The position numbers and the translations under genes are program-made. The notes below the pieces were generated by a model. The model was not told the DNA's origin. It did no database searches and worked only from the letters and a program-made list of their open reading frames with translations. This document shows positions 26,382-48,128 of a stretch of 48,472 bases of DNA, one piece after another. Location: positions 1 through 48,472 of the forward strand of contig JANWKP010000127.1 of the NCBI GenBank assembly GCA_025451315.1. The letters are read 5' to 3'. Numbering within the stretch: the first letter of the stretch is position 1; every line of letters starts with the position of its first letter. The stretch is from Nitrososphaerales archaeon (GTDB lineage Archaea > Thermoproteota > Nitrososphaeria > Nitrososphaerales > Nitrososphaeraceae).

Positions 26382-27080
26382 TTGAGTATTTAACTATTAG
26401 GAATTACCTAGATAAAGTATTCTCTATACCATTAAGCATAAAATAATCCATTAAACATTATATTTTGTAAATTTGCGACTAATATTCAATGGAAAATGAT
26501 AGCAGGGTAGAATGCAGATTTCCCTTAAATCCTTTATTTATACCTAACAATAAAGGACTTTTTCTCTAAATTGCATATTATAAGAAGAGAAATCTAAGGA
26601 AAAAAGAAGTTGAAAGTTAGATACAAACAATGAATTCTTGTGGTATAGACTATATTTTTTTACTAAATATAACAAAAAAGGTGAAAATGGTATCGATACA
26701 GTCAAGATATGATAGACTTTTGAACGTAATTTTATCATATATAAAAAAATTGTTAAATAGAAAAAATTCAGGGATGGACAAGCCCTCCTGCATTTTTCTC
26801 AGTATATTTCATTTATTGATATAAAAAGTCTATCTAAGAATCTAACGATAATAATATTTAATTTAATTAGAGTTTTATTCCAAATATTAATTTTAACTAA
26901 TGGTGAAATAACAACACATCAATTTTACATCTTAAATTCAGAAATTAATTATAATCAATAAATCCCATGAATTTAAGTTAACAAAATAATTCATATTCTA
27001 AATTCTCACGTTAGATTATCTTGAGTGATTCAGAAAAAAAGAATTTAATTAAATAAGAGATAATTTTTTAATATAGTAAT
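26382..27080. other. Intergenic region before tRNA-Arg
   Basis: This AT-rich stretch has overlapping short frames on both strands (around 26544-26824) with no family resemblance. I see no gene. The promoter of the tRNA should lie in the last 60 bp. Confidence 0.45.
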
Positions 27081-27155
27081 GGGCTCGTAGCGTAGCCAGG
27101 ATATCGCGGCGGTCTTCGGAACCGCAGGTCGTGGGATCGAAGCCCTCCGAGCCCG
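27081..27155 (+). tRNA. tRNA-Arg (anticodon TCG)
   Basis: The 75-base gene has a perfect 7-bp acceptor stem (gggctcg with cgagccc) and a D arm with GG in the loop. Its 5-bp anticodon stem (gcggt/accgc) carries loop cttcgga, so the anticodon is TCG, and the T arm is gtggg-atcgaag-ccctc. CCA is not encoded. The T stem has a T-T mismatch at its second pair and the T loop starts with A instead of T. No intron is present. Bases 27137-27155 belong to the element's attachment core. Confidence 0.93.
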
Positions 27156-27156
27156 T
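27137..27156 (+). other. Left attachment site (attL core) in tRNA-Arg
   Basis: Twenty bases from the T loop to one base past the tRNA end recur exactly at 48109-48128. In the same register the motif GGGGTTCA is also shared (27165-27172 and 48137-48144). A tRNA 3' end next to a tyrosine recombinase gene is the classic archaeal integration site. Confidence 0.85.
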
Positions 27157-29247: not shown

Positions 29248-30294
29248 ATGACTAACAACCAAGACGAGAATACCAGTGAATTTAAGGCGTTTAAGTTGGA
29301 TGATTCGACACGTAGGAAACTCTCATCAGATAATTATTCCAAGTGTATAACTGTATATAACAGAATTAATAAACAATTGGTGAATGATTATCCTAACATT
29401 ACTGGAACAGGGATCAGGCTAAAAGTCACAAATGGAGAAGTTCTTGATAAACCAAGTATCCTTATCATGGTCAAGAAAAAACTATCGCTCCAGAAAATTA
29501 AAGAACTCGGGGAAAAAATTCTCCCTATAGAAATTGAAGGAGTACCAACAGATGTAGAAGAGACTGGAGAGATTATTGCTATGCAAAATGCTTCTGATCC
29601 GGAAGTGCTTCAAAATCCATCCGGTTGTATTCTCAAACCTGGTTATAAAATAAATGCTGCAGGAGGACGTGGATTTTCTGGAACACTAGGATGCTTTGTA
29701 AAGGATAGAGCAGATGGTAGTATATCATTATTAAGCAATCATCATGTAATAGGTAAGTACGGTATAGGTGATAGAATAATTCAGAATGGCGAATATATCG
29801 CTACTGTATCTAAAGATATTGAATATAATAATAATATAAACTTGGTAGATGCCGCTATAGCGAAATCTAGGAGACCAGTTGATCTTCAAATTCCCGGTAT
29901 AGGTATTCCGCATGGCATTCGACAAGTTCCATCGGTTACCGATAATTTACTGGTTAAGAAAACAGGTCAACGGACCGGATTGACAACAGGAAAAATAGCC
30001 ACTTTAGGTTTGGTATGTAACAAGCTTATTAATGTTGAGAAGGGTCCCACTCCTGTCTTAAAAAGATTTGACCAGTTATATGAGATAGAGCCGGCAGAAG
30101 GTAACAATTTTTTTTCCGATGAGGGAGACTCAGGATCTATTGTTTTAGATGCGGATAGGAATGTCCTAGGCCTTTTAATTGCAGCAAATCCTCTTAATGA
30201 CCCAACAATCCCAATTAAAAAATCATATGTATGTACTATCGAAAATGTCCTTCAGATGCTGAATATTGAGCTTCTAACAGAGGACGACTGGTAA
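29248..30294 (+). CDS. Trypsin-like serine protease, NAL1-like family
   Basis: This 348-residue protein has a complete catalytic triad: H166 in 'LLSNHHVIG', D201 in 'LVDAAIAK' and S295 in 'DEGDSGSIVL'. 'VKKTGQRTGLTTGKI' (about 237-250) is typical of the NAL1-like branch of chymotrypsin-fold proteases. Residues about 50-110 form the small alpha/beta domain that precedes the protease in this family ('GTGIRLKV', 'IEGVPTDVEETG'). There is no signal peptide, so it probably acts inside the cell or is released by another route. Its neighbours in the element suggest it may process one of the giant proteins; this is inference only. It is convergent with the LCAT-like gene. Confidence 0.88.
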   Translation: MTNNQDENTSEFKAFKLDDSTRRKLSSDNYSKCITVYNRINKQLVNDYPNITGTGIRLKVTNGEVLDKPSILIMVKKKLSLQKIKELGEKILPIEIEGVPTDVEETGEIIAMQNASDPEVLQNPSGCILKPGYKINAAGGRGFSGTLGCFVKDRADGSISLLSNHHVIGKYGIGDRIIQNGEYIATVSKDIEYNNNINLVDAAIAKSRRPVDLQIPGIGIPHGIRQVPSVTDNLLVKKTGQRTGLTTGKIATLGLVCNKLINVEKGPTPVLKRFDQLYEIEPAEGNNFFSDEGDSGSIVLDADRNVLGLLIAANPLNDPTIPIKKSYVCTIENVLQMLNIELLTEDDW

Positions 30295-30355: not shown

Positions 30356-31555
30356 TTACTCGTTAATCAAATTCAAAATACAGTTTAGCGGACACTCATC
30401 CTGAATTAATTGCATATGGTCGATACCACGAAACTGTTTCGCATATTTAAGTTTTAAGCGTCCATTGGTTATTATTCCATCTAGATTATATGCACTCTTT
30501 TCAGGCACGATTCCATCTCCAATTGGGTTAAATTTAAATGATACATCTTTTGTCTGCTTAGAATACTTGACTCCAGTACCTGTTTTAAGCTCAGTTGAAT
30601 ATATAACATAGGTATTATCTAATGGAGAGGATTTTCCTAGTAAATTGTGAAAGTTTACCGCGTTTCTGACTAGTTCCTTTCTGTCTAGTTTCTCATTATT
30701 GAGAGCGAGGAAAGAAAACTTAGATTCTTCAGCAATGTAATTGCTTTTTATATTTGTTCCCTCGGAATATCCTGCGTAAGCAGGAACATCTCCTGGGCTA
30801 ATATGAAATAATGGTTCGCCTGGACTAACAACAATTATTGGTTCGCTTGGTATAATACGAACTATTGGTTCGCTATATATTAAATCTGGAAGCAACTGAT
30901 AGATTCCTGGAAGTTCATTGAATACAAACTCACCTTTTGGCATATAAAAATCTGTATTATTGCCAAAAAATGATCCCTTTCCAGACTTTAAAATAGAATA
31001 TATATTCGGACACCCATGATTGGGAGTTCCTATAAGTATCTGCTTTTTAATATTATGTGGATTAGAAGGATTCTGCCTGAGATATTCGCGAGAAAGTAAT
31101 CCGCCCATGCCATGACCCACTAAATATGTTTCACCAACGTTCTCAGTGTGCTCAATAATGAAATTTTTTAGTTTTTTTGCAGTTTCAAACAGATCTTGCC
31201 TCCAATCATAGGGATATTCAAAAAATAATCTAGCGGAGGAATCTATGCTCCCTGTTGACCAGTGATCTTCCTTCTGTAGGATTTTAAAATCATTATCCTC
31301 AAAAAATTCCCTAGTTTTATTATAGGTTACGTCTGGATAGCAGAGGCAATGGAATAGCCAATCGAATTTTATATCTAACAATTTATTTGGTTCAAGATTG
31401 ATAGAAGGATCCCTTAATTTACTAGTTTCAAAACCTCCTGAATATATAGTGCCTTCGTCACTTTCTAGAGTTGGAGCCCAGACCTTCTCAGAGCCATCAT
31501 AAAGCTCTGAACCACCTACAGTAGGAAGAAAAACAACACACTTGATCACCAACAA
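30356..31555 (-). CDS. LCAT-like alpha/beta hydrolase with substituted nucleophile
   Basis: This 399-residue protein is of the lecithin:cholesterol acyltransferase/lipase type: 'VVFLPTVGGSELYD' at the N-terminus, 'PYDWRQD' (about 115-121), then the nucleophile elbow and 'ILIGTPNHG'. The elbow reads G-H-G-M-G (147-151) where G-H-S-M-G is expected, so the catalytic serine is glycine (codon GGC). The acid and base look kept: D347 in 'GDGIVPEKSAY' and H380 in 'GIDHMQL'. Near residues 232-265 four 9-residue units follow one another ('SEPIVRIIP', 'SEPIIVVSP', 'GEPLFHISP', then a partial one). No signal peptide is present. Starts are TTG or GTG; a GGTGA site lies before them. Enzymatic activity is doubtful. 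Confidence 0.85.
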   Translation of the reverse strand: MLVIKCVVFLPTVGGSELYDGSEKVWAPTLESDEGTIYSGGFETSKLRDPSINLEPNKLLDIKFDWLFHCLCYPDVTYNKTREFFEDNDFKILQKEDHWSTGSIDSSARLFFEYPYDWRQDLFETAKKLKNFIIEHTENVGETYLVGHGMGGLLSREYLRQNPSNPHNIKKQILIGTPNHGCPNIYSILKSGKGSFFGNNTDFYMPKGEFVFNELPGIYQLLPDLIYSEPIVRIIPSEPIIVVSPGEPLFHISPGDVPAYAGYSEGTNIKSNYIAEESKFSFLALNNEKLDRKELVRNAVNFHNLLGKSSPLDNTYVIYSTELKTGTGVKYSKQTKDVSFKFNPIGDGIVPEKSAYNLDGIITNGRLKLKYAKQFRGIDHMQLIQDECPLNCILNLINE

Positions 31556-31702: not shown

Positions 31703-34700
31703 TTGGCTAGTCAATTCTTCTTATCAATTGTAGAACAACTGAGTTTAGCTTTTAAACCCCTAGAAGAAAGTCTAGAGAGTTCAGAAAAATTTTCCAATCT
31801 TTTGGAAAGGCATGGCTGGCGAGTAGAATCAACTTCATTTGATATAGATCAAATAAGAAATTTTTTTGATCCATCTAACACCAATGGATCTAGCTTTGAT
31901 AAACTCTCTATTCTGATCGATCAGACTATTGGATCTGATTTGGAATCTATAGTTGATATTTATCCTCAGATTCTAAGCATTCTTCAAGATATCATAAAAA
32001 ACATACAAAGCCTAGTGGTACTTAGCTCAAACCCGCCACTACATTTGCCTTTTCCATTTAATAATTCTGAGTTCTGGCAAGAATTTCCTGGTGAGCTCAT
32101 AGAAGAATTATTAATATCATATCTTGAATTTTATCAACCTTTTTTATTCTCGATCCTGCAATTTCTTGGAATAATTGAAAGAGAAAATGTAATAGTAAAT
32201 GAAACAGTTACAGGACGCATCAACTATACTAAGGCGATCCTACGCTACGATAATTTAAAGTATATTACACAACCTGAGGAGCTGCGTAAAAGGGTTTATG
32301 GATGGGGTACAGATGAATTTGATTTTGAGCTTCTTTTAAACAATCTTAGGCAGCTCATAAATTCATTCGGTAATCTAAGCGGTCTTTATATTCCATCTTC
32401 TCAACTTCTAGAGAATTATTATGCTACTACTAATACTGTTCTTCCAAGACTACAAGAACTCCGTATACCTATTTTAGGTGGCATCAATGAAGATAACGAA
32501 TTACCCTTTGATGTATCTACGCATGTTTTTCCTATTCCACGAGAGGGCGATCAAGACGGTATGCCAGTTGGAATTGTAATGCTTCTAGAAGTAGCTGGTA
32601 ATATACCGTTTGATATCTTGGATAAACTATTCAAATTGAGGATAGGAGGAGGTATTGAGACAATACGGGCCATGAAAATTGAGGCTCGTCCAGAAAATAC
32701 TAAAGTGCTATTCATGAATCCTGATATCGATAAACTAGATATACATGCATCATCTAGCCACAGATTTATCCGTCCAAAGATTCTCATAGGTTCTGAGAAT
32801 TCTCATAACATTAAAATTTTTGACCTTGGATTTGGAATTAGTCTACTAGGCACTATAGAAGATGCAGAAGTTAAAATTGCAATAAAGATACAAAAAGCTC
32901 AACTCATTATAGACAACTCTGATGCCAATATTGATTCTTTCATAAAAGATAGCTTCGGAAATAGGTCTTATACTATAGAATTTGGATGTTCATTAGTATA
33001 TTCTTCAAAACGTGGCATCCATTTTGAAGGTAATTCTGGACTTGAAACGACTATACCTGTTAATCGAACAATAGGTACGATCAAGATCGATACTTTAACT
33101 CTTGGAATAATGAACACAGATAAAGGACTTGATCTAGTTGCCGGTATAACAGGAAGCATAAAGTTTGGCCCAGTGTCAATCAGTATTGAAAAGGCAGGTG
33201 TATTCTTCATGCTAAATCATGTGACAACAAATGAAGATACACAACAAAAGATATTTGGTGATCTATTTTTGGACTTTGGTTTTAGATCACCTTCTGGATT
33301 TGGAATAACTATAGATAGTAATGGAGTAAAAGGTGGCGGATTCATTTCAAGGAAAGAATCAGAATATTCTGGTGTAATAGATCTTAATATTAGAAAGATT
33401 TCCATTCAGGCTCTCGCATTTTTGGACACAAGAGATGGCTCATTCCTTTTCGCAATTTTTTCCAATTTACGATCTCCAATTCAACTTGGAAGTGGATGGA
33501 AGATAACCAAAATAGGTGGAGTAATTGGCATAGATCGTACTGTATCACTTGGCGATATTGTATCTGGAATTAGATCTGGAATACTAGATTCAGTTCTGTT
33601 TCCAGATAACGTAATTCAAAATGCGCCTCAAATAATCAATGATTTTAAACGGGTATTTCCTACCAAATCAGGACAACATCTCATAGGTCCTGCAATAAAA
33701 ATTGTATATGGAACTCCTACACTTCTTACAGGGGATATTGCATTACTCTTAGAATTTCCAAATCCATTTCAACTCTCTGCTATTGGCAGGATTAGATCCA
33801 AGATTCCAAACGAAGAAAGTCCAGTGATACAAATCAATATCGCGATTTTGGGAGCAATTGATTTTGCAAACCTACGATTAGGTATCTATGGTTCACTATA
33901 TGATTCAAAGATCCTTGACTTTGCGCTTTCTGGTGACATGGCTATGGCTGCAAGTTGGAGCCCAGAAGAAAAGAATTTAATTTTAAGTCTCGGTGGATTT
34001 AATCCCCGATTCAAACCACCATCAAATTTTCCGCCATTTAACGCACCTCCTCTAAAAAGATTAACAATTGCTTTCTCTAGTTATGTTAGTCTACAATGCT
34101 ATGTTGCTTTGACATCAAATACATTGCAATTTGGTGCAAGAGTAGATGCTCTTTTTAAAAAAGGTAGCGCGACAATTTCCGGCTTTCTAGGCTTTGATGC
34201 ACTAGTTCAGTTTGTTCCATTATATTTCATAGTTGATGTTATAGCAGGATTTTCCGTAAAGTATAAAGGTAGATCTCTGGCTAGTATAAAGTTTTCAGGC
34301 TTCATAGAAGGACCAAATCCTATTAGAATCAAAGGTTCTGTAACATTTTCTATTTTATGGTGGGATATTTCAATAGGGGTAGATAAAACTTTTGGTATTC
34401 AGATACCTGAGCTAATATCTAGCATTGATCTCTGGCTAATACTAAGAGATACTCTAGAACAAAATGATAGTTGGATAGCAGAGCTTCCAACATGGGCTAT
34501 TGATGGCATAATTGTAAAGGGATCTTCTTCTTCTGAAGAAGAAAATGAAACAAACAATAATGGTCACGAAAGATTATTGGTTCATCCTGTAGGAACACTG
34601 AAAGTATCTCAAAGGATAGTTCCATTTAATCATACACTAACCAAATTTGGAACATCTAATCCACTAGGTAACCCTCAATTTAAAATAATCTCACTACTTG

Positions 34701-35239
34701 ATGAATCTACAAATTTAGTTACTACTCAAGATTATTTTGCGCCTGCACAATTTTCAAATTACGATAATACACAAAAACTTTCATTGAAATCATTTGATCT
34801 TATGGATTCAGGTGTTATGCTTGGTGATGGACACGTTGATATTTCTTGTCCTCTTGAATCTATATCAAAGAAACAAATGATATATGAAACAATAATGATA
34901 CCTGCACAACCAGAGCAACAAATAGCTCCTTATTTTCCTATGAAGATCCATACACAAATCTTTGAATTTTCAAGTTCTGCATATAAGACTCGATTGACAC
35001 AAAACCAAAATAATATTCAATACAAATCCAAACTACAAAAACCAGCGGTCTCTATTACTAACGAGCGATACATTATCTTAGATATTGACAAGAATCTAGT
35101 AACACCCACAGAACCAAGTTTACATGGTGAATATAGTCAGGCGCAAGCTATAAACAAGTTACAAGATTCTAAAATTAAAAATAAAAATAACTTGAAGATA
35201 TTTTCTATTTTTGAAAAACCATCGGAGATAACCACATGA
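31703..35239 (+). CDS. Giant beta-rich protein, DUF6603-like
   Basis: This 1178-residue protein opens with TTG, the only possible start before a stop. Residues 1-250 are helical. From about 260 to 940 it is a long series of amphipathic beta strands. The middle block matches what I remember of bacterial DUF6603: 'IGGVIGIDRTVSLGDIVSGI', 'GILDSVLFPDNVIQNAPQII', 'FPTKSGQHLIGPAIKIVYGT', 'YDSKILDFALSGDMAMAASW', 'LGGFNPRFKPP', 'ALTSNTLQFGARVDALF'. Residues 940-1178 are a polar tail. No signal peptide or membrane helix is seen. Such alternating strands could form an elongated groove or tube, but function is unknown. Its last 4 bases overlap the next gene (ATGA), implying coupled translation. Confidence 0.85.
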   Translation: MASQFFLSIVEQLSLAFKPLEESLESSEKFSNLLERHGWRVESTSFDIDQIRNFFDPSNTNGSSFDKLSILIDQTIGSDLESIVDIYPQILSILQDIIKNIQSLVVLSSNPPLHLPFPFNNSEFWQEFPGELIEELLISYLEFYQPFLFSILQFLGIIERENVIVNETVTGRINYTKAILRYDNLKYITQPEELRKRVYGWGTDEFDFELLLNNLRQLINSFGNLSGLYIPSSQLLENYYATTNTVLPRLQELRIPILGGINEDNELPFDVSTHVFPIPREGDQDGMPVGIVMLLEVAGNIPFDILDKLFKLRIGGGIETIRAMKIEARPENTKVLFMNPDIDKLDIHASSSHRFIRPKILIGSENSHNIKIFDLGFGISLLGTIEDAEVKIAIKIQKAQLIIDNSDANIDSFIKDSFGNRSYTIEFGCSLVYSSKRGIHFEGNSGLETTIPVNRTIGTIKIDTLTLGIMNTDKGLDLVAGITGSIKFGPVSISIEKAGVFFMLNHVTTNEDTQQKIFGDLFLDFGFRSPSGFGITIDSNGVKGGGFISRKESEYSGVIDLNIRKISIQALAFLDTRDGSFLFAIFSNLRSPIQLGSGWKITKIGGVIGIDRTVSLGDIVSGIRSGILDSVLFPDNVIQNAPQIINDFKRVFPTKSGQHLIGPAIKIVYGTPTLLTGDIALLLEFPNPFQLSAIGRIRSKIPNEESPVIQINIAILGAIDFANLRLGIYGSLYDSKILDFALSGDMAMAASWSPEEKNLILSLGGFNPRFKPPSNFPPFNAPPLKRLTIAFSSYVSLQCYVALTSNTLQFGARVDALFKKGSATISGFLGFDALVQFVPLYFIVDVIAGFSVKYKGRSLASIKFSGFIEGPNPIRIKGSVTFSILWWDISIGVDKTFGIQIPELISSIDLWLILRDTLEQNDSWIAELPTWAIDGIIVKGSSSSEEENETNNNGHERLLVHPVGTLKVSQRIVPFNHTLTKFGTSNPLGNPQFKIISLLDESTNLVTTQDYFAPAQFSNYDNTQKLSLKSFDLMDSGVMLGDGHVDISCPLESISKKQMIYETIMIPAQPEQQIAPYFPMKIHTQIFEFSSSAYKTRLTQNQNNIQYKSKLQKPAVSITNERYIILDIDKNLVTPTEPSLHGEYSQAQAINKLQDSKIKNKNNLKIFSIFEKPSEITT

Positions 35240-38200
35240 GCGATTTTGCAAAAGAGACAAAATATACATTTCTACCGTGGATTCGAACAGGACTTGGAAC
35301 TCGAATACCAAATAATACACAAACATTAAGACCTAAGGTTCCTGTAGAATTGAAACTTAAAAGATATGATAATGGTGGTAATGAACATGTGGAAACAGTC
35401 ACAAAAGACGTATTTTTATATGGTCCAGCAGACGTTGAAGGAATCTTGAAAAGTGTAATTATAAGAACTGAACCAAAAACCAATGGATTAAACTTTGAAG
35501 CAAACTATTTACCTCATATTGAATTTTCTCAAAGTGACTTTCCATGGAGATATACACCTACGGTATCTGATCCAAATTCAAGACCAAGACTGTTACCCTG
35601 GCTATGTTTGATAGTACTAAAGGAATATGAATTTGAGTTGACCTCCTCTATGACCAACAGAAATGGACATAGCAGTATATTGCCCAAAATTATACTTAAC
35701 AAGATACCATCAGAGTGTCTTCCTGATTTACAACAATCATGGGCTTGGGCTCACTGTCAGATTACAGAAGAAGTTGATACTCTAGAAAAGCTCAGGCAAA
35801 TTATGGTCGTACAACCATACAAATGTACATCTAGAATAATATGTCCTAGAAGTTTAGAATCAAATACAAAGTATTTCGCCTTTCTAGTTCCATCTTTTGA
35901 AGCAGGAAGGCTAGCAGGGCTTGGACGTATAGAAGAACTTAATGAAGGCATTAATAATGGTACAATCAAGGGAACAACCGCTGCTTGGAGAAGAGATGGA
36001 CACTCACCATCACAACAAATTCTAGAACTTCCAATCTATTATCAATGGGAGTTTAGTACAGCAGACAGTACAAGTGGTGGAGGAGATTTTGAAGCCTTAG
36101 TAAGAAAATTAAAACCATTAGACGTGGAACTGTCAGAAAATATAGGATTACGTAAGTTGGATGTAAGCAAACCACTTGAGATAACTGCCGATGATGATGG
36201 TGATAACCAGAATGATGATGATGATGATGGAAACATATTTGGAATCTCAAAACCCTTAAGCTTGGGAGGAGTATTGTGGTCTACTAGTGCCAAAGAAAAA
36301 GCAGATCAAACACAGATTGATGTACGCAATTATTCAATTCCTAATGATCCAGATAGTCCTTCACCAGAAGAGATTAGAAAATTCATCATGTCTCTTAAAG
36401 AGATGCTTGATTCTCCTGAAAGACTAACTTGGAGTTTTGTTCCTTATACTGCTAGTGATAAAAAAGAAGATCCTTCAATTTCAGTTCCGATCTACGGAAA
36501 ATGGCATGCTGCAAAAAAAATTATATCAAAAATCAGCAATGATAATCAAGATCCAGAATGGATAAAAAATATTCTTGATAATAATGATCTTTCTGATAGT
36601 CAAAGACAAGAATTATTAAAACTTCTGGATAAACTCAGGGATAATTCACCTTTTCTCTGGCTGGAAGAGCTTAATTTAGATCCTAAAAACAGAGTTGCGG
36701 CAGGACTTGGAACAATAGTTATCCAGGAGCTTCAGGAAGATCTTATGGCAGCAGCGTGGGACCAGGCAGGAGCAATTGTTGAAGCAAATAGGCGTTTACG
36801 ACTAGCTAAACTTTCACGAACACTCTCAAAAAATGTATTTGATAAAACACTGAAAATTATGAATCCTGATACAATGATTAGCACCATTACCCCATTTCAT
36901 ACAAGAGTATCCATTAGTATGGAAGGAACAACTACTCATGGAGAAACAATTGCAAATATACTACATAATAGTCCTATCCCTAATGCTTTTTTCACACCAT
37001 CGTTTAGAAAGATAACCTCAAGACGAGGAAAAATCCACAGAGGGTTGTTGAGTGAGGATAATCATGAGAATAATCTTCTTTTTTCTAACTTGCTTAAAGA
37101 CTTTAACAAGAATTTGTCAAATGAGGATCCTAATCGTCCATCGAAAAGATTTATGACTACAATAGAATCCCTTCTTCCCATACCAGAAATTGACAGTAAT
37201 CGATTTTCAACAGAGAAAGATTTTCTTGATGATCAATTCTTGTCTAATAATCCTGATTTCAAGGATTTAGAAAAAACTATACCAAATTTTGAAGAAACGG
37301 TCATTGAAGAATTACCAAACACAAAAACAGTGCCTCTTGATAAAATACATGAGCGATTGTTTATTGATCTGGATCCAGATTATACAATAACTACCAAAAC
37401 TTTGTTCGAAATTCATAGACCAGAACGACATAGAGAAAACTTGAAAGATAAATTAGATCCAATAATGGTTTATCCAAAATTTAATCGTCCCATGTTTGAA
37501 CCGTTATTAAATATTTCTGAAGAATTATTGCTTCCTGGTGTTGAAGATATTCCAGAAAACACGGTTAGTTTACTGGAAGTAAATTCTGCTTTTATAAACA
37601 GCTATATGGTTGGATTAAATCATGAAATGTCTAGAGAATTACTCTGGAGGGAATATCCCACTGATCAACGTGGTAGTTATTTCAGACAATTTTGGGATCC
37701 ATCTATAGCGATCGAAAGAGAAAGACTACAACGTTTATCCTCTCTTGGTCTTGATGCACAAGACAGTCTTCCTAGAGAGGATGACGAAAAGATAATTGAA
37801 AAATATCGAGATATAGATGAGATTCACAAATGGAAAGAAAGTAGCATATCTGACCCTAAAAATCAAAATATATCTATAGAACCAAAAGCATTTTTAATCA
37901 AAGGCGAACTAATGCGGAGATATCCAAATGCCATAATTTACGCAATAAGAGCAGTATGGTACAAAAACAAGCCTACTCTACCAACCATCACTCAAACGGA
38001 TCCTAACACAGGTTTAGTAAAACGTGTATTTCCGAATTTATCGGAGGAGATCAGAGAACCCCTATTTAAGGGAACAATGAATCCAGATATAACTTTTTTC
38101 GGTTTTTCCATACCAGAAGCTGAATTATTGGGAGAAATACAACACGATGGACCAGAACCTGGAAATGAACATGTTGATGGTACTCACGACAAAGCGGGAT

Positions 38201-38490
38201 GGTTTTTCGTTATTCAAGAACAGCATTCAGATCCAAGATTTGGAATCGATCTAGGACATGATGATGATCTTCCAGTAGACCCTGATTCTCTTACAGATTG
38301 GAACAATCTTAGCTGGAATTATATAACATTATTACTACCATCATCAAATCAACACATAGATTTAGAAAATGGTATTCTAAAAGACAAGGAAATTAACGGG
38401 ATAAAATGGGGTTCTCATTCAGCTGATATGGCAAATATACTGCTACAATTGCCAGTTAGAATAGCAATTCATATTTCTGAGCTAATCTAG
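35236..38490 (+). CDS. Giant hypothetical protein, second gene of DUF6603 cluster
   Basis: This 1084-residue soluble protein has a mixed fold and no signal peptide. Conserved-looking stretches are 'YTFLPWIRTGL' (10-20), 'FLYGPADVEGI' (60-70), 'EANYLPHIEFSQSDFPWRYT' (88-107), 'RLLPWLCLIVLKEYEF', 'LPDLQQSWAWAHCQI' (162-176), 'AFLVPSFEAGRLAGLG' and a C-terminal 'HDKAGWFFVIQEQHSDPRFG' followed by the last 90 residues. I recall these patterns from unnamed bacterial proteins next to DUF6603 genes. An aspartate-rich low-complexity run lies near residue 315. The ATG overlaps the previous stop; the next gene follows after 86 bp. Role unknown; a structural part of an assembly is my best guess. Confidence 0.8.
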   Translation: MSDFAKETKYTFLPWIRTGLGTRIPNNTQTLRPKVPVELKLKRYDNGGNEHVETVTKDVFLYGPADVEGILKSVIIRTEPKTNGLNFEANYLPHIEFSQSDFPWRYTPTVSDPNSRPRLLPWLCLIVLKEYEFELTSSMTNRNGHSSILPKIILNKIPSECLPDLQQSWAWAHCQITEEVDTLEKLRQIMVVQPYKCTSRIICPRSLESNTKYFAFLVPSFEAGRLAGLGRIEELNEGINNGTIKGTTAAWRRDGHSPSQQILELPIYYQWEFSTADSTSGGGDFEALVRKLKPLDVELSENIGLRKLDVSKPLEITADDDGDNQNDDDDDGNIFGISKPLSLGGVLWSTSAKEKADQTQIDVRNYSIPNDPDSPSPEEIRKFIMSLKEMLDSPERLTWSFVPYTASDKKEDPSISVPIYGKWHAAKKIISKISNDNQDPEWIKNILDNNDLSDSQRQELLKLLDKLRDNSPFLWLEELNLDPKNRVAAGLGTIVIQELQEDLMAAAWDQAGAIVEANRRLRLAKLSRTLSKNVFDKTLKIMNPDTMISTITPFHTRVSISMEGTTTHGETIANILHNSPIPNAFFTPSFRKITSRRGKIHRGLLSEDNHENNLLFSNLLKDFNKNLSNEDPNRPSKRFMTTIESLLPIPEIDSNRFSTEKDFLDDQFLSNNPDFKDLEKTIPNFEETVIEELPNTKTVPLDKIHERLFIDLDPDYTITTKTLFEIHRPERHRENLKDKLDPIMVYPKFNRPMFEPLLNISEELLLPGVEDIPENTVSLLEVNSAFINSYMVGLNHEMSRELLWREYPTDQRGSYFRQFWDPSIAIERERLQRLSSLGLDAQDSLPREDDEKIIEKYRDIDEIHKWKESSISDPKNQNISIEPKAFLIKGELMRRYPNAIIYAIRAVWYKNKPTLPTITQTDPNTGLVKRVFPNLSEEIREPLFKGTMNPDITFFGFSIPEAELLGEIQHDGPEPGNEHVDGTHDKAGWFFVIQEQHSDPRFGIDLGHDDDLPVDPDSLTDWNNLSWNYITLLLPSSNQHIDLENGILKDKEINGIKWGSHSADMANILLQLPVRIAIHISELI

Positions 38491-38576
38491 GTCTTATCTT
38501 AGCAAAAGCTTATCAATTAATTCTCTCTTTGAATATTGTGAAAGAACGAACCCAAATAGGATGTGTCCATATTTAA

Positions 38577-41500
38577 GTGGCTGTTTTGGATAACAAATTT
38601 CCAGTCTTATTCTTTCCAATAAGATTAGAGACAAAATACCATATTACAGATGAGGGAAAGAGGATTCTTAGAATTAGATTCTTTCCTGATCAAATATCCA
38701 TAGATACTTTTGATCCTAGACTTACAAATCAAGAGATAACAGATGCAAAGGATTATTGGACAACTGTAAAAAGCATTGAGCATACAAACACTGAATTTGA
38801 AAATAATAGAGAAAATGCATGGCAGAAATTAGTAAACAAATACGGCTGTAATCGAGCTGCCTATATCTCCAAAAGTGTAATTAAATATGATCCAGTACAG
38901 AATCCTGATCCTACTAACCCCGAATTTCGAGAAGTGAATGGAATCGAAGTACAAGAAGAGGATATAGTTGGTATTTGTAGAGCACTTCCCAGAACCTTTA
39001 GGGTCTACGGCAAATTTAAAGATGAATCTTCTCCGACATTCTTAGGTGAATCTAACCAAATTTTAAAAGAATTACATGTAGGATCTTTTACTTTCGATGA
39101 TGATATTGAAATTCATGATTCTTTAAAGTGGCTTACTAGTTTTAAAGCAGCAAAAGATAATGGTATGGCGATAGAGATAGAACTAACTGAAGACAGGTTT
39201 CTCCAAGGTTTTGAATACATTTTTGTCTGTGGAGTTAAAGATGATCTAACACCACAAGAAACAAAGATATTTGTAGAGAATTTATTTAGAGCCCATCACT
39301 ATACAACAGGATTTAGTTTCCTCAAACAAGGAACACCAACTAACTTGGTTAATAGACAAACCGAACAAAATAATAGTTTTTCATCCTTATCTTCTTCCAC
39401 AAATGTAAAGACATGTAGACAAATAGAGTTCTCAGGATTATTTGCATTAGAAAGCCAACCTTTTTCTGTTGTAGACATGATTCCTGATGGCAGGATATTT
39501 GAAAAAAAACTTGGAGTTGATCATCTATCATCAGGAGTAAATAATGCAAACAATATGGAACAGATTAGTGCAGCTTATATGTCGATTTTGCTATTGCCCG
39601 TGATTATTGGAGAGTTATTGAAAAAAACACAATTATCTGATATCTTTTTGACTAGACTAAGGGGACATTTTATAAAAAATGTTAGAGCGCAAGGAAGTAT
39701 TCCACCTTTTAGAATAGGTAAGGTACCATACGGAATCTTACCTCTAACACATCTATCTCATCTTAGAGACTTTCATCTTGTTATTGATTGGGAGGATTCT
39801 AGCCTGATTCAAAATTATAGTGCCCATATTGGAACTTTTTTTCATTATTTGAAAAATATATGGTTAGAGCATGTTAATGATGTCCCAACCATAATGAATA
39901 TACCGAATGGTGTTTCGCCTGAAAAACAATTAGTAAATATCCTATCCATGGAGGCATTCTCTCATTCTTATTATGTAAGAGGTTTAAGAGACTACAATTA
40001 CATTGAAAATTTTATTTCTAAAAAACTTGGAATTATTCTTAATGTGATAGCAAATCGCCTGCTAGAAGCAAACAAGACTAGAATTAATACGATGTTAAAA
40101 TCACTATTTAACATTCAATCAGTCTCAACAATTCCTCTTGATTTAACTGAACTATACAGGCGTATTCTAGGTTCTGGATTTACCAGAATGAATATACCTT
40201 ATACTTCAAAGCTCAATGAAGATAAAGAGATTACTGTTCCTACATATTTAATGGACATGTATCTGGATCTTAATGAATTTGGAATAGACTCAAATTATTT
40301 AAAGACGAGTGAAGAACAATCCCAGATAGATGGATTTCTTCCATTGCAAAAAGATGATTCTTTACTCTTTAAATTGTTAAGATACTCCGCAAGTATATTG
40401 GGAGGCGATCTGAATCAGATTAACGATATCTCACAAAGGCAAAAGTCATTAGATGAATCGAAATTTGCTGAAAGTCTAAAATTTTTATCAAAGACAGTAG
40501 GAGAAAAAGATCCACTCGGCTTAGAATCGCTAATGCTTCAAGTTCTAGATCTTGCATCGTACAGACTAGATGCTTGGCTAACATCATTTGCTAATCAGAG
40601 ACTGGATTACCTTCGTGAATATAATGATGTCACAAAAACAGGTCTATATATAGGCTGTTATGGATGGATAGAAAATCTTAAACCAAAAAATATAGGCGGT
40701 CCTGCTGGAGAATCTCCAAAAAAATCTGTTTATCCAGGTGGATACATACAATCTCCTTCTTATGCTCATGCAACTTCTGCTGCAGTTTTACGGGATGGCT
40801 ATCTCACTCATTCAAATGATTTGGACAAGAAAGATCTACTAAAAATAAATCTTACTTCAAAAAGAACCAAGGATGCTCTTGAAATTATACGGGATATACA
40901 TAATATATCATTGAATGAGCTATTGGGATACAAATTCGAGAGAAGACTACATGATGATGAGATCGATTATCTCATAGATGAATTCAGAAAGTACTTTGTC
41001 CTTAAAAAAGATGATCTTAAGGAATTAGAGGGGAGCAATACAGTAGAAGCTTCCAAGGAGAGAATAGTTCCAAGGAATCTAGTAGATGGTTTTTCAGTTT
41101 ATAAACATTGGAAACGGCTAATCGAGAACATAGCTAATGCTGATGCATTGTCTATCAAAAATTTTATGGCAAATGATCTACAAGGTCCAAATGATCGAGG
41201 ATGGCATTCGTTTTATATCGAAATCAGAATTAAATATGCTCAAGATGATCAAAAAATAATTGAACTGATTAATCGCCTCAAACCTCACTTAGACTTCCTC
41301 CTTGATCAAATTGATGCATTATCTGACCTATCGATTGCAGAGAGCGTTTACCAAGCTGTTAATGGAAACTATGAGCGTTCAGCAGCAGTTTTGGATGGAT
41401 TAAGTGGTGAAGGAGAGATTCCTATACCAGAGGTCGCCTCAATACCAGTAGGAGGTACATATCAAGTACAAAAGATTGTACTAGCAACAGAAACAGATCC

Positions 41501-43166
41501 ATTGATAAAATTAAATCTTCGTGATATTAACGATAATAGTAATATTAACACTTCTTTCAAAAATCCAAGGATAATTGCGGAACCAAATCTAAACAGGATC
41601 TTAAAGTCTTATTACGGTGATATTCTTTTCTGGATCTATCTCAAAGATCATAAAGATGGAAATGTTATATCTCCACCAGTTGAAGTAACTCTATCCTCTC
41701 TAGGACTTGAACCTATAGATCTATTACATATTAAGGAAACAGAACTTAAGAACAGACTCAAATATTATGGAAAAACATCAAATCTGTTAGATAATAACAG
41801 TTCTATTGTATACTACTGTGATGTTGAACAATTTGATAAAAAGCCACCAAGTGAAAAAGATAATATTGATAAAAAATCATTCTCAGAACTTCAGCTTCTA
41901 ATCCGATCATTACAGGAGATGTTTGGGCAGAGCATACCACTAAAATATTCTGATTTCATTTCACCTCAGTCGGATATTTCTGACAACAGCGGTGATGATT
42001 CAATACAAACAAATATTTCAAAGAATATGATTATGGAGATATTTCAAAGATTTTATGATTTAGTTTTCTTGACAGCTAGAACTATAGAAGAACTGGAAAC
42101 AGCAGAGAATAATACTCTTTCTATAGAGATAAAGAGAGAGGCAATTATGAATGCAAGTTTCTTCAATCTTTCTTCAGATATTTTCCCTATTTACGATGAT
42201 GAAATTATAATAGATTCTGAAAAACTTAATGAAAAAATTGGATTAGTAATAACTGAATTACGATCAAGGTTGCAAAAACTGAGAATAGGGGATATCAAGA
42301 CAAAATTATCCGAATGGAGAATTAAACTAGAATCCGAAGGTGGCAATCCTGAATCTCTCTTTAATCTTGTATATCGCCAAATGCATAATATAGATGAAGC
42401 AGATGAGATTGACACTACTTTAACTCTATACAATAAACTCCTTGATACCTTGATAAGTGGTTTTAGAATTATCATCAATGCTCCATCATTTTTAATAATT
42501 CCACCATTTGAATCTCCTCCTCCTGATATTATCAAAAATTTTGAACCATCATCACCATCCAAAAATAAAAAGGCGCTGAAATGGATTAGAAAAGCAGCAT
42601 ATGTTAGACCAAGACTAAAGCACTTTGATGATATCACTATTTTCAATCAGATTTTTGAATCAGCAGACTTTTCATTTTACTATGACAAGAATAAATTCAT
42701 GCAAAATGCTGGATCCATATCTAACGATGTAGAGGATAATAATCCAATTTCTATGGTTATTTCTATGTCTAATAAAACAGGTATGCCCGAAGATCAGAGA
42801 GAAAAATTTCCACCACCAGATCCAAAGAAATTAGCAGGGTTGATAATAGATGAATGGGTCGAGAAAATTGTTTTTCCAGAACAAGACACGACAGTCGCCT
42901 TTCATTATAATGGTCCAAGTACTGAGGCCCCACAATGTCTTCTGCTCGCTGTATCTCCTAACGATTCACATGCTTGGAATTGGGATGATCCGACAAACAA
43001 TACATTAAAGGATCTGATTGTAGACGCGATGGATCTTATGAAAATCCGAGCAGTAGATTATCGTTCTTTAAAGGAGTTAAGTCAATTCCTTCCTACTATT
43101 GTAGTTAATTCATCGGGATCACCTATTTACACAAGATTATATGAGAAAGGAGGAGAAACTGAATAA
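38577..43166 (+). CDS. Giant hypothetical protein, third gene of DUF6603 cluster
   Basis: This 1529-residue protein, the largest in the window, has a GTG start. Its N-terminus 'FPVLFFPIRLETKYH' and 'RFFPDQISIDTFDPRLTNQE' (8-53), 'RIGKVPYGILPL' (near 380), 'YRLDAWLTSFANQRLDYLRE' (near 660), 'GCYGWIENLKP', 'GGYIQSPSYAHATSAAVLRD' (near 720) and 'LIIDEWVEKIVFPEQDT' (near 1421) are patterns I recall from large bacterial proteins of unknown function. Long helical stretches separate them. There are no membrane helices or export signal. It follows the second gene by 86 bp and precedes the fourth by 55 bp. Size and context suggest a scaffold subunit; no enzyme motif was found. Confidence 0.8.
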   Translation: MAVLDNKFPVLFFPIRLETKYHITDEGKRILRIRFFPDQISIDTFDPRLTNQEITDAKDYWTTVKSIEHTNTEFENNRENAWQKLVNKYGCNRAAYISKSVIKYDPVQNPDPTNPEFREVNGIEVQEEDIVGICRALPRTFRVYGKFKDESSPTFLGESNQILKELHVGSFTFDDDIEIHDSLKWLTSFKAAKDNGMAIEIELTEDRFLQGFEYIFVCGVKDDLTPQETKIFVENLFRAHHYTTGFSFLKQGTPTNLVNRQTEQNNSFSSLSSSTNVKTCRQIEFSGLFALESQPFSVVDMIPDGRIFEKKLGVDHLSSGVNNANNMEQISAAYMSILLLPVIIGELLKKTQLSDIFLTRLRGHFIKNVRAQGSIPPFRIGKVPYGILPLTHLSHLRDFHLVIDWEDSSLIQNYSAHIGTFFHYLKNIWLEHVNDVPTIMNIPNGVSPEKQLVNILSMEAFSHSYYVRGLRDYNYIENFISKKLGIILNVIANRLLEANKTRINTMLKSLFNIQSVSTIPLDLTELYRRILGSGFTRMNIPYTSKLNEDKEITVPTYLMDMYLDLNEFGIDSNYLKTSEEQSQIDGFLPLQKDDSLLFKLLRYSASILGGDLNQINDISQRQKSLDESKFAESLKFLSKTVGEKDPLGLESLMLQVLDLASYRLDAWLTSFANQRLDYLREYNDVTKTGLYIGCYGWIENLKPKNIGGPAGESPKKSVYPGGYIQSPSYAHATSAAVLRDGYLTHSNDLDKKDLLKINLTSKRTKDALEIIRDIHNISLNELLGYKFERRLHDDEIDYLIDEFRKYFVLKKDDLKELEGSNTVEASKERIVPRNLVDGFSVYKHWKRLIENIANADALSIKNFMANDLQGPNDRGWHSFYIEIRIKYAQDDQKIIELINRLKPHLDFLLDQIDALSDLSIAESVYQAVNGNYERSAAVLDGLSGEGEIPIPEVASIPVGGTYQVQKIVLATETDPLIKLNLRDINDNSNINTSFKNPRIIAEPNLNRILKSYYGDILFWIYLKDHKDGNVISPPVEVTLSSLGLEPIDLLHIKETELKNRLKYYGKTSNLLDNNSSIVYYCDVEQFDKKPPSEKDNIDKKSFSELQLLIRSLQEMFGQSIPLKYSDFISPQSDISDNSGDDSIQTNISKNMIMEIFQRFYDLVFLTARTIEELETAENNTLSIEIKREAIMNASFFNLSSDIFPIYDDEIIIDSEKLNEKIGLVITELRSRLQKLRIGDIKTKLSEWRIKLESEGGNPESLFNLVYRQMHNIDEADEIDTTLTLYNKLLDTLISGFRIIINAPSFLIIPPFESPPPDIIKNFEPSSPSKNKKALKWIRKAAYVRPRLKHFDDITIFNQIFESADFSFYYDKNKFMQNAGSISNDVEDNNPISMVISMSNKTGMPEDQREKFPPPDPKKLAGLIIDEWVEKIVFPEQDTTVAFHYNGPSTEAPQCLLLAVSPNDSHAWNWDDPTNNTLKDLIVDAMDLMKIRAVDYRSLKELSQFLPTIVVNSSGSPIYTRLYEKGGETE

Positions 43167-43221
43167 GAATACAAAATAGGTTGAAGATATCTAAATCTCA
43201 AATGGAGTTGACAATCTGTAA

Positions 43222-45294
43222 TTGAGTTTTAGAAATTTCTTTTCATGGCAGAGAATCGAGCCACATTCTCGCCGAAGTGATTTTTCAAAGGGAGTTCAGG
43301 CTACAATCCATGATCCAGCTTGGATGCTTGCAAGGCAATGGCAGTTAGGAGAATTCGAAGGAGAAGATGCCGGTTCCCCAATTTGTAGTGTATTAAATTC
43401 AAGGGAATATAAAATACTGAATGTTTTGTTTAATGGTTTAGAGGGTAATTCAATTTCTTATGATGATAATATGCCGCTAGAGACGTTAATAGAAAAGACA
43501 AAACTTGAAATTTCAACGAAAGTTAAGAAAGAAAATGAGTCGGATAATATGCCCATATCCTCAATCTATGTATCTACCCCACAATTGGATCTACAAATGC
43601 GAGTTAAAATGGGATTGCATTTTCAACATGAAATGTATAGAATACTCCAAGATATGGGTATTCAATCAGACAAAATAAATGATATAAAACAGTATTTTGT
43701 ATCTCACAACCAGAACGAAGAGTTTAGATTGTCTTTTGATGACTTAAATGAGAAACAACAAGAATCTGAAATTGATTCTACTACAAACTATCTCTCTGCA
43801 ATACAAGGAAGAGTTATAGACATATACAAAATCTATCATGAGCCACAAGCACTTACCATTCTAAGAGATAAATCCAAAGCAAAGTTTGTAGATGATTCCA
43901 GTTTAGCTGATAGAATAGCTGATGGACTTGCGGTTGCATTTACGAATTTGAAGCATTGGTGGGATGGTAATGTTACTTCTTCTTCAGAAGAAGACGAAGA
44001 ACCATTTTTTGAAACACCAGTGATAGAAAGTGGTACAAATAATAATAGTAATGATAATGATAATCATGAATACTATACCACATCTAATGCCTGGGATCCA
44101 AGACATTTAGAATATAGTTTCAAAGTGCAATTAGTACCTCGGTTAGACAATAATAACAATAATAATAATGACACAAAATTGTTACTCGATGCATCGGAAT
44201 ACAAAGAAGACCTTTTAGACTGGTATTCATTTACTTTGGAAGAAGAATTTTCTGCACAGCAACCTATTTCTGAGTCAAAAAAGGTTACTTTGACTCCTAC
44301 TCAGCTAAAATTTACTGGTATGCCTGAAAAAAGATGGTGGAACTTTGAAGATAGCTATGTAGATTTTGGCTCATTAGAACCCAAGAAGAATAATATCGCC
44401 AGTATATTGCTGATGGAATTTGCTCTAGTTCATTCTTCAGATTGGTATGTCATACCCTATCAAATGAGACTTGGTACATTAAGCAAAATAGATAGTCTCG
44501 AAATAATTGATTCTTTTGGTGATCAGACTATAATAGAACCTGCCGGCTTTACAGCTCGAGAAAAAAAAATGTTAGAAAATAACAAATCATGGTATTCTTG
44601 GAATATGTTTTCACTTTCAAAAAAATATAAAGATCAGGATCCTAATAATACGAACATTAGCGGTAACATTCCTTATTTTTTTCTTCCTCCAACTACTGAT
44701 CATAATCTATCAGGCCCTGCATTAGAAGAGATAAAATTTCTACGAGATGAAATTGCAAATCTCACTTGGGGTATAGAGAAAGCATATAGATCGTTATATG
44801 GAGAACCTATTTCTGGATATGAAACTCAGGTACCAAGAAACAACAATAATAATGAACAATCAAGAAATAATAATAATGAAGATATCAGCAATAATCTAGG
44901 TTCTAATAAACCAGTCAAATATACTCTAATGACAACTGTTCCACCAAATTGGATTCCATTTATTCCAGTTCATACTACTAACTTTTTATCCAATCCAGTA
45001 ACAAATCTTCCATCACAATTGCATATAGAGTTGCAAAGAGGATCTATAATAAATCCTAAAACAAAGGAACCTCAACGTCCTAATTCAAGACTGCTAAATG
45101 AAGTTCCACCTCCTTATTATATTGATGAATCTGAAATACCTAGATCTGGAATTATTATCTCTGAAAAGTGTCGGCGTATTATGTGGCATAATGGAAAAAT
45201 ATTTCTTTGGATTGGACGGAAAAAATCTGTAGGTACAGGAGAAGGTTCAAGTGCTCTAAAGTTTGATTCTATACCACTAGATAAGAAAATGTGA
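43222..45294 (+). CDS. Hypothetical protein, fourth gene of DUF6603 cluster
   Basis: This 690-residue protein opens with TTG. Residues 29-53 contain 'IHDPAWMLARQWQLGEFEGE' then DAGSP, a very conserved opening in the bacterial relatives I remember. The C-terminal part has 'TVPPNWIPFIPVHT' (about 573-586), 'YYIDESEIPRSGIII' and 'FLWIGRKKSVGTGEGSSALK', also conserved there. Between them are Asn-rich runs (near 270-280, 310-320 and 540-560) that look like archaeal expansions. There is no signal peptide or membrane helix. It closes the co-directional run; a 700-bp spacer follows, so the transcript probably ends here. Function unknown. Confidence 0.8.
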   Translation: MSFRNFFSWQRIEPHSRRSDFSKGVQATIHDPAWMLARQWQLGEFEGEDAGSPICSVLNSREYKILNVLFNGLEGNSISYDDNMPLETLIEKTKLEISTKVKKENESDNMPISSIYVSTPQLDLQMRVKMGLHFQHEMYRILQDMGIQSDKINDIKQYFVSHNQNEEFRLSFDDLNEKQQESEIDSTTNYLSAIQGRVIDIYKIYHEPQALTILRDKSKAKFVDDSSLADRIADGLAVAFTNLKHWWDGNVTSSSEEDEEPFFETPVIESGTNNNSNDNDNHEYYTTSNAWDPRHLEYSFKVQLVPRLDNNNNNNNDTKLLLDASEYKEDLLDWYSFTLEEEFSAQQPISESKKVTLTPTQLKFTGMPEKRWWNFEDSYVDFGSLEPKKNNIASILLMEFALVHSSDWYVIPYQMRLGTLSKIDSLEIIDSFGDQTIIEPAGFTAREKKMLENNKSWYSWNMFSLSKKYKDQDPNNTNISGNIPYFFLPPTTDHNLSGPALEEIKFLRDEIANLTWGIEKAYRSLYGEPISGYETQVPRNNNNNEQSRNNNNEDISNNLGSNKPVKYTLMTTVPPNWIPFIPVHTTNFLSNPVTNLPSQLHIELQRGSIINPKTKEPQRPNSRLLNEVPPPYYIDESEIPRSGIIISEKCRRIMWHNGKIFLWIGRKKSVGTGEGSSALKFDSIPLDKKM

Positions 45295-46000: not shown

Positions 46001-47839
46001 ATGATAGCCTTGTCAGCAATAATACTTGCAGGTCTACTTTTAGTTTCTCTTATAGAATCTCTAACGACTATGATAACAGAACAAATAACAACAATGAAAG
46101 AAAATTATGTATATGCAGAATCACCCACTAACGATCAAAATTCCCCATTAATTGCAATTTCTTCTAATGCAAGCTCAATTGGGACAATCAAAACAAATGC
46201 TACTAGTTCTCCTTTCAATCCTTTTAGTCTCAATTTAAAATCTCAAGGTGCTTCCGAAGTAACTGGTGATTTTAATGGTGACGGATTTGAAGATCAGGCT
46301 TTCGGGATTCCAGAAAAAAACGCTGGTTCTATAAATAACGCTGGTTCTGTGCACATCATATATGGTTCTTCAGATGGCTTGAGTGCTGCTAACGTTTTAC
46401 CCAACCAGATATGGAACCAAAACTCTCCTTTTATACAAGGCAGTCCAGAAGATGATGATTTGTTCGGTTCGGCTCTTGCTCCCGGAGACTATAATGGTGA
46501 TGGATTTGATGATTTAGCTATCGGAGTACCTGGAGAGGGTTTAGACCTTGCTATTGTCTCGTTTCATGATTTTGATGCGAGTATTAATTCCAATTTATTT
46601 GCAGAAAATGCTGGTGTTGTGCAAATTATCTATGGTTCTGCACATGGTCTAGTAGCTTCTACCCAACTGCCAGCCCAATTCTTCATACAAGGTTTTGCTA
46701 GTATAGAAGACATTGGTGAATTAAATGATTTGTTCGGTGCAGATCTCTCCTCAGGCGACTATAATGGTGATGGACTTGATGACCTCGCTATCGGAGTACC
46801 GGAAGAGAACGTCGGTGATGTAAGTTGGTCTGGCGTCGTCCACGTTATCTATGGTTCCTCGACTGGTCTGTCAGCTACTGCAGGTTTGCCAGACCAGTTG
46901 TGGACACAGGATTTGATAACACCTGATTTGGACTTATTCTTTTATGGAGATATTGGAGAATATGATAGGTTCGGATCATACCTCTCGTCAGCTGACTATA
47001 ACGGTGACGGGCGAGATGACCTGGCTATTGGAGCTCCAGACGAAGATAATTATGATGTGGAAAACACTGGCGTAGTCCATGTCATCTATGGTTCCTCTAC
47101 TGGTCTGTCAGCTTCTGCTGTTATACCTAGTCAGTTGTGGGAAGAAGCAGATATAGATATTATTGATTTTGAGAATGATTTCTTCGGTGCAGATCTCACC
47201 TCAGGCGACTATAATGGTGATGGACTTGATGACCTTGCTATTGGAGTAACGGGCGAAGACTTTGACGCAGAAAATGTTGGCGTCGTCCACGTCATTTATG
47301 GTTCCTCGACTGGTCTGTCAGCTACTGCTGTTATACCCGCCCAGCGGTTGGGGACACATAACTCTACTGGTTTCGGATCCTTCGGGGGGGTCCTCTCGTC
47401 TGGTGATTATAACGGTGACGGGCGCGATGACTTGGCTATTGGAGTACCGTCAGAAGCCATTGATACTTTGAAATATGCTGGTTTTGTCAAGGTGATCTAT
47501 GGTTCTTCTGATGGTCTTTCAGCTACTGCAGTTTTACCAAGACAAACGTGGACACAGAACTCTATCAATATAAAAGATTTTTCTGAGCAGATTGATTTCT
47601 TTGGTTACTCTCTGTCGTCAGCTGACTATAACGGTGACGGGCGCGATGACTTGGCTATAGGAGTACCGTACGAAGATTTTGGTGGAACGCACATTGTCGG
47701 CCCGTTATGGGATGTAGGTATAGTCCATATCATATATGGCTCTGTAGATGGTCTGAATGCAAATAGCGTTTTAGCAAACCAGCTATTGTGGGAGGGATCA
47801 ATGGCTAACCGCTTCGATTACTTCGGTGCAATTCTCTAG
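46001..47839 (+). CDS. FG-GAP/integrin-alpha-type repeat surface protein, C-terminally truncated
   Basis: This 612-residue exported protein has an N-terminal hydrophobic segment (about 2-20, signal peptide or anchor). A Ser/Asn-rich spacer is followed by seven FG-GAP blades, each with a calcium-loop motif of the form DYNGDGxDDLAIG, the first near residue 90. Such blades form a beta propeller used in adhesion or ligand binding on cell surfaces. The frame stops at 'RFDYFGAIL', exactly where an eighth blade would begin its calcium loop, so the end is probably lost. Several blades are nearly identical at DNA level. The base composition looks richer in G and C than its neighbours. It stands 270 bp before the right att site. 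Confidence 0.88.
   Translation: MIALSAIILAGLLLVSLIESLTTMITEQITTMKENYVYAESPTNDQNSPLIAISSNASSIGTIKTNATSSPFNPFSLNLKSQGASEVTGDFNGDGFEDQAFGIPEKNAGSINNAGSVHIIYGSSDGLSAANVLPNQIWNQNSPFIQGSPEDDDLFGSALAPGDYNGDGFDDLAIGVPGEGLDLAIVSFHDFDASINSNLFAENAGVVQIIYGSAHGLVASTQLPAQFFIQGFASIEDIGELNDLFGADLSSGDYNGDGLDDLAIGVPEENVGDVSWSGVVHVIYGSSTGLSATAGLPDQLWTQDLITPDLDLFFYGDIGEYDRFGSYLSSADYNGDGRDDLAIGAPDEDNYDVENTGVVHVIYGSSTGLSASAVIPSQLWEEADIDIIDFENDFFGADLTSGDYNGDGLDDLAIGVTGEDFDAENVGVVHVIYGSSTGLSATAVIPAQRLGTHNSTGFGSFGGVLSSGDYNGDGRDDLAIGVPSEAIDTLKYAGFVKVIYGSSDGLSATAVLPRQTWTQNSINIKDFSEQIDFFGYSLSSADYNGDGRDDLAIGVPYEDFGGTHIVGPLWDVGIVHIIYGSVDGLNANSVLANQLLWEGSMANRFDYFGAIL
46733..47248 (+). repeat. Near-identical DNA repeats in the FG-GAP gene
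   Basis: Bases 46733-46798 and 47183-47248 match at all but about three positions. A second type (gactataacggtgacggg-c/a-gatgac) recurs near 46993, 47407 and 47626. The spacing follows the blade length, with two blade types partly alternating. Confidence 0.75.
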
Positions 47840-48108: not shown

Positions 48109-48128
48109 TCGAAGCCCTCCGAGCCCGT
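48109..48128 (+). other. Right attachment site (attR core)
   Basis: This is an exact copy of the last 20 bases of the tRNA-Arg region (27137-27156). The upstream part of the tRNA is missing, so this is only a fragment, as expected for the far end of an element integrated into a tRNA gene. GGGGTTCA at 48137-48144 extends the similarity. Confidence 0.85.

Follow-up and report, generated by a model that had tools for sequence, protein, structure and literature searches.

The DNA analyzed here, called the window throughout, is a stretch of 48,472 nucleotides that makes up positions 1 to 48,472 of contig JANWKP010000127.1 of a Nitrososphaerales archaeon (GenBank assembly GCA_025451315.1). It contains four giant adjacent genes, which we refer to as core genes A to D:

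31703..35239, forward strand: core gene A, DUF6603 protein of 1178 amino acids (aa) (PF20248, E=7.8e-106)
35236..38490, forward strand: core gene B, 1084 aa, present in all of the clusters described below
38577..43166, forward strand: core gene C, 1529 aa, with 396 relatives in genome contigs
43222..45294, forward strand: core gene D, 690 aa, conserved in the clusters and with a predicted structure

The four proteins, all encoded on the same strand, sum to 4481 aa; A and B overlap by 4 bp, and gaps of 86 bp and 55 bp separate B from C and C from D. All of these values agree exactly with a previous sequence-only reading of the window, which had also assigned the first gene to DUF6603. The corresponding match in A is nearly full length (residues 453-1022, model positions 1-500 of 502) and scores 355 bits against a Pfam cut-off of 27. 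No significant family match could be found for B, C or D in Pfam, NCBIfam or PHROGs, and none of the core proteins had a match in PADLOC. The sequence-only reading had named a match to a characterized system as evidence that would speak against it, and for B, C and D these four collections offered no such system. Comparison of A-D profiles with PDB sequences gave nothing significant, the best value (E=0.013) being that of D to an uncharacterized protein. No paper was found under the name DUF6603 or PF20248 in a literature search that had most subscription journals outside its range. No characterized relative of the four-gene set was found, although databases already contain all of its families, either unnamed or as DUF6603.

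To see how widely the four genes travel together, plasmid and genome sequences were searched. Among 72,556 plasmid records, tblastn searches with A, B and D each matched a nearly identical set of 13-14 records, whose hosts were haloarchaea, Streptomyces, Nocardia, Rhizobium, Paraburkholderia and Gemmatirosa, and analysis of open reading frames (ORFs) revealed A-B-C-D in this order at the plasmid loci. With a pattern derived from an alignment of C, at least 396 relatives of C could be confirmed in genome contigs. It should be noted that this number is a lower bound, because a single pattern was used, it requires a Q that the C protein of the window lacks, and 80 loci were retained. A search with the sequence of D alone recovered no related loci, an alignment being needed. 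When the retained genome loci and the plasmid loci were pooled, 69 clusters held all four genes. Both plasmids and chromosomes carried them, in haloarchaea and in at least 12 bacterial phyla, and 68 of the 69 showed the order A-B-C-D on one strand, the exception being arranged as B-C-D-(PhoD)-A. The median intergenic gaps in the complete clusters were -4, -4 and +1 bp (A/B, B/C and C/D, respectively). Because of this preserved order and these close spacings, it is likely that A-D form one assembly. The suggestion that the three partners keep company with DUF6603 in bacteria was therefore borne out and extended to haloarchaea, and a failure of the four families to co-occur elsewhere, which had been put forward as a possible refutation, was not observed.

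The window itself has the identical four families, adjacent, in the same order and on one strand, as do the clusters of bacteria and haloarchaea. However, it differs from them as a long-branch member from another archaeal lineage, located in a tRNA-integrated element and accompanied by a protease that lacks the domain described below. In a sample of its phylum only the window genome was positive for DUF6603 (1 of 300), and the same was true among its relatives (1 of 61). Some loci departed from the common arrangement. A plasmid of Streptomyces anthocyanicus carries a lone D gene (locus L007, 17047-18852) adjoining an opposite-strand alpha/beta hydrolase, and one Halobellus plasmid has two clusters (L011 and L015) whose core genes are split into several ORFs and which are apparently decaying.

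Upstream of A, a further position in the cluster could be recognized, which we call the slot: a gene on the strand of A, at least 250 aa long, that ends near the start of A. Such a gene was present in 54 of 77 loci with A, often with a 4-bp overlap. PhoD-like proteins and proteases with a shared C-terminal domain accounted for 14 slot genes each, and the other 26 formed the remainder. Pfam matches among slot genes included S8, trypsin-like/NAL1, M64/M6, PLDc, Het-C, M23 and kelch/glyoxal oxidase. In the window, the product of 29248-30294 shows homology to slot trypsins over their catalytic part, and its His-Asp-Ser triad is in register (NHHV, VDAA and GDSG motifs aligned with those of slot proteases). 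The sequence-only reading was right about the four-gene core, but it had overlooked both the variable enzyme slot and the docking-like domain.

This domain, hereafter the tag, comprises ∼115 aa at the C-terminus and is common to subtilases and trypsin-like proteases, two groups of unrelated fold. Its consensus is EV..LIN.NR.V.V.WHR..GP.F ... HGS..L, and at locus L020 a free copy of 128 aa precedes the protease. Finding the tag again at slot loci is circular, because the tag model was built from those loci. In 45 core-bearing whole genomes no copy was detected away from the cassette, and in a sample of 248 genomes two of three copies adjoined a core that had not been used for the model. The window genome contained no tag copy. 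Because it is common to unrelated folds and restricted to the slot, the tag may serve as a docking domain in one lineage.

The core and the putative slot enzyme of the window lie within an integrated element, whose other features are as follows:

27137..27156, forward strand: left attachment (att) site, the 3' end of tRNA-Arg (tRNA 27080-27156), exact repeat
27218..28540, forward strand: tyrosine recombinase (integrase) adjoining the tRNA, XerD-type (TIGR02225, E=3e-4; PF02899, E=1.4e-3), with a C-terminal zinc-ribbon-like stretch
29248..30294, forward strand: trypsin-like (NAL1-like) protease, putative slot enzyme (phrog_20754 protease, E=1.6e-33; homology to slot proteases elsewhere)
30356..31555, reverse strand: LCAT-like alpha/beta-hydrolase (PF02450, E=2.3e-12), membership uncertain
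46001..47839, forward strand: FG-GAP beta-propeller protein (PF01839, E=4.7e-58), membership uncertain
48109..48128, forward strand: right att site, repeating the tRNA-Arg 3' end exactly

The att repeat is an exact 20-bp sequence, TCGAAGCCCTCCGAGCCCGT, found at 27137-27156 and 48109-48128; by our estimate, a given 20-mer would recur exactly in 48 kb with a probability on the order of 1e-7. It encloses a 21-kb element in tRNA-Arg that carries the integrase, the protease, the LCAT-like gene, A-D and the FG-GAP gene. The recombinase matches are weak but consistent, and an integrase beside a tRNA 3' end together with a matching distant direct repeat is the arrangement of tRNA-targeting thaumarchaeal elements, which usually integrate at tRNA 3' ends (PMC6563490). 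The integrated element proposed from the sequence alone therefore stands with its tRNA-Arg, integrase and exact repeat, whereas that reading had overlooked its exact right boundary and had not counted the upstream protease among the probable members of the system. The ordinary chromosomal genes to the left of the element encode a class I aminoacyl-tRNA synthetase, PAC2, TrmB and COX1/2; taken with the GC content and the relatives of the genome, they are read as those of an archaeal host of the Nitrososphaeraceae kind. Further copies of the right att region are present in the same genome (contig C282, 1-326, 94% over 326 bp; contig C125, 3567, 84% over 56 bp), because of which the tRNA-Arg site has probably been reused, repeatedly or in tandem. 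Congeners yielded no clean empty site, because the right att region is present a second time in the genome (94%) and its match in congeners does not adjoin a tRNA. In the LCAT-like protein, the nucleophile elbow GHSMGG of a lipase is changed to GHGMGG; with Gly in place of the catalytic Ser of GxSxG, the protein probably lacks lipase activity. The FG-GAP protein has an N-terminal hydrophobic segment and would be exported or anchored.

Export signals and domain content were considered with regard to the site of action. By simple hydropathy rather than a trained signal predictor, a hydrophobic N-terminus was found in none of 276 core proteins from the 69 clusters, in line with the absence of export signals claimed for the window, and in only one of 54 slot genes. 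Lamin-tail domains occur in haloarchaeal D proteins, an FG-GAP repeat in a Streptomyces ORF containing B, and a peptidoglycan-binding domain in one slot enzyme. These features lean tentatively toward action outside the cell.

We also examined predicted structures of A and D. The AlphaFold2 model of A (predicted local distance difference test (pLDDT) score 75, predicted template modeling score (pTM) 0.47) has a helical region in the first ∼240 residues and ∼27 long antiparallel strands, many of which show alternating hydropathy and are predicted to be amphipathic. Foldseek matched it to ushers, LptD, porins and ApoB, with probability up to 1.00 and a query-side TM score of at most 0.16. These matches represent a topology class in the model and not a homologue: outer-membrane ushers, LptD, porins and ApoB resemble A in having many long antiparallel strands, but have no sequence relation to it. 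The long beta-groove or tube suggested previously is compatible with this meander but weakly supported: given the pTM and the TM values, groove, barrel and belt are indistinguishable. The D model (pLDDT 72, pTM 0.74) had no fold match in PDB or viral models.

In a tree of the core, phyla interleave, which supports transfer between distant lineages; transfer between domains had been claimed previously. The haloarchaea cluster in a single nested group, from which the window, on a long branch, is separate. A single archaeal origin is not claimed here, given this long branch and an approximately unbiased (AU) test on reduced data that gave p=0.043 against archaeal monophyly. Repeated transfer between domains, its direction left aside, is the simplest reading. 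A second DUF6603 architecture was also encountered. Such type II loci (L144-L149 and L152) account for about half of the DUF6603 loci sampled in Bacteroidota. They have a longer A' and a usually recognizable B' that is often split; C and D are missing, and an unrelated partner of ∼1250-1340 aa is present. No homology could be observed between these large partners and C or D. Some of the loci have a gene for a metallo-beta-lactamase (MBL)-fold or DUF4135 (lanthionine-synthetase-like) protein upstream.

With regard to anatomy, we are highly confident that the system combines a conserved core, carried by a mobile element, with an adjacent enzyme that varies. With regard to function, we tentatively propose, at rather less than even confidence, a payload-carrying scaffold that acts outside the producing cell. 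A-D would be subunits of one giant assembly moving among prokaryotes on plasmids and integrated elements, and the gene before A would supply an exchangeable catalytic subunit, such as a protease or a PhoD-like phosphoesterase; in one lineage, the proteases may dock by their common C-terminal domain. The large amphipathic beta sheet predicted for A could bind or cross lipid, with B, C and D forming the presumed scaffold. Because the complex has no Sec-type signals, it would leave by lysis or another route, and might then carry the hydrolase to other cells or surfaces. For the window, the trypsin-like protease (29248-30294) would be the catalytic subunit. The proposal draws on the constant gene order and close spacing, the slot enzymes, the tag, the missing signals, the surface-type modules fused to core or slot genes and the predicted amphipathic strands of A.

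Several observations weigh against this proposal. Among the 54 upstream genes, 26 were unclassified, and some may be chance neighbors (one match set is a GntR regulator). Slot class mostly follows the core tree, with only three switches between PhoD and tagged protease in 28 tips and 10 changes of finer classes in 36 tips; exchange in the slot is real and infrequent. Membership of the window protease has to be inferred from homology and position, because it has no tag and is parted from A by the opposite-strand LCAT-like gene. The third tag copy of the 248-genome sample belongs to a lone tagged trypsin-like protease (locus L155, 9380-10792) with no core genes within the 20-kb stretch examined. 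Finally, the global fold of A is of low confidence.

The same cassette could also be an intracellular conflict complex, in which A-D sense an invader and unleash the hydrolase in the same cell, causing abortive infection or inhibiting a competing element. Signal-less core proteins, a sporadic and mobile distribution and proteases as swappable effectors would suit it, and one slot subtilase matches the PADLOC subtilase model (E=2.8e-26). However, PADLOC does not recognize the core, A-D contain no ATPase, nucleotide-binding or nucleic-acid-binding domain, and surface-type modules are unusual for such systems, and we regard this explanation as unlikely. Lectin-like and peptidoglycan-binding modules occurring nearby, together with the degradative nature of the slot enzymes, would rather fit an extracellular or surface complex for nutrition, with a scaffold holding hydrolases for proteins, phosphoesters and polymers by a cellulosome-like logic. 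Such a complex seems distinctly unlikely, since Sec/Tat signals are absent from the core and almost absent from the slot enzymes, unlike known secreted scaffolds, and each locus offers a single enzyme. We give little chance to a lipid-binding or lipid-transfer assembly with A as beta-groove conduit, its partners as scaffold and the hydrolases as processing enzymes: it would explain the long amphipathic antiparallel strands and the matches to LptD and ApoB, but the TM scores are low by query length, unrelated barrels are among the matches, and neither a membrane anchor nor a partner transporter was seen. A role of A-D as structural parts of a virus or of a tailed particle of the mobile element itself, which giant collinear genes in an integrated element might bring to mind, is hardly credible. 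No Pfam, NCBIfam or PHROGs search found a phage-tail family in A-D, nor was there any PHROG or Pfam structural match; B and C had no relatives among 2.9 million viral contigs, D had no viral fold match, and the core resides on many unrelated replicons. A tail-like particle, one of the comparisons suggested in the sequence-only reading, is not supported.

Extracellular contractile injection systems (eCISs) needed separate consideration. Like the core, they are mobile, occur in bacteria and archaea, have variable enzymatic effectors and are sometimes found in the same genome or adjoining the core. A phage-tail-like particle specified by genes at another place in the genome might be loaded, internally or externally, with A-D and the enzyme. 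An eCIS locus is present on contig C93 (1-20000) of the window genome, where sheath, T4-baseplate-like, Pvc16_N, AAA (with winged helix), hub, spike-OB and baseplate genes were recognized, and the eCIS marker was present in only 2 of 60 relatives. Pvc16_N was found in 24 of 50 core-bearing genomes or records, and in two Chitinophaga loci (L024 and L061) the core cassette is directly followed by eCIS genes (Pvc16_N and contractile sheath); this was the only adjacency seen, and the two form a close pair. In a controlled Bacteroidota sample, whose DUF6603 set mixes two architectures, an eCIS was indicated in 5 of 12 DUF6603 genomes versus 49 of 236 others (p=0.14; p=0.26 without the centre genome). 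As this 2x2 test was not significant, the eCIS payload was demoted to a minor rival, and we consider it improbable. In addition, none of the sheath, tube, baseplate, spike and ATPase families is represented in A-D, an operon with sheath, tube, baseplate, AAA ATPase and Pvc16 is absent from the element, and the combined size of A-D appears too large for a tube lumen. Tc (ABC) toxin complexes, with several giant signal-less subunits, a variable toxic enzyme and FG-GAP/VCBS-type modules, also resemble A-D; however, no TcA/TcB/TcC Pfam domain (VRP1, SpvB, TcdB or RHS) was detected in A-D at E up to 1.

In its widest form, the payload-carrying scaffold would be a giant machine shared between domains, in which four conserved subunits, including a lipid-active beta-meander protein, carry interchangeable docked hydrolases (held in one lineage by the C-terminal tag), travel with plasmids and integrated elements, and attack or remodel other cells by a mechanism unlike contractile injection systems and Tc toxins; we advance this with considerable doubt. 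In all, ∼13.6 kb of collinear coding DNA is kept together across at least 12 bacterial phyla and distant archaeal groups. With the slot enzyme and the shared tag, what were four giant unknowns become the subject of a payload-scaffold hypothesis that is testable in cultured bacteria and haloarchaea.

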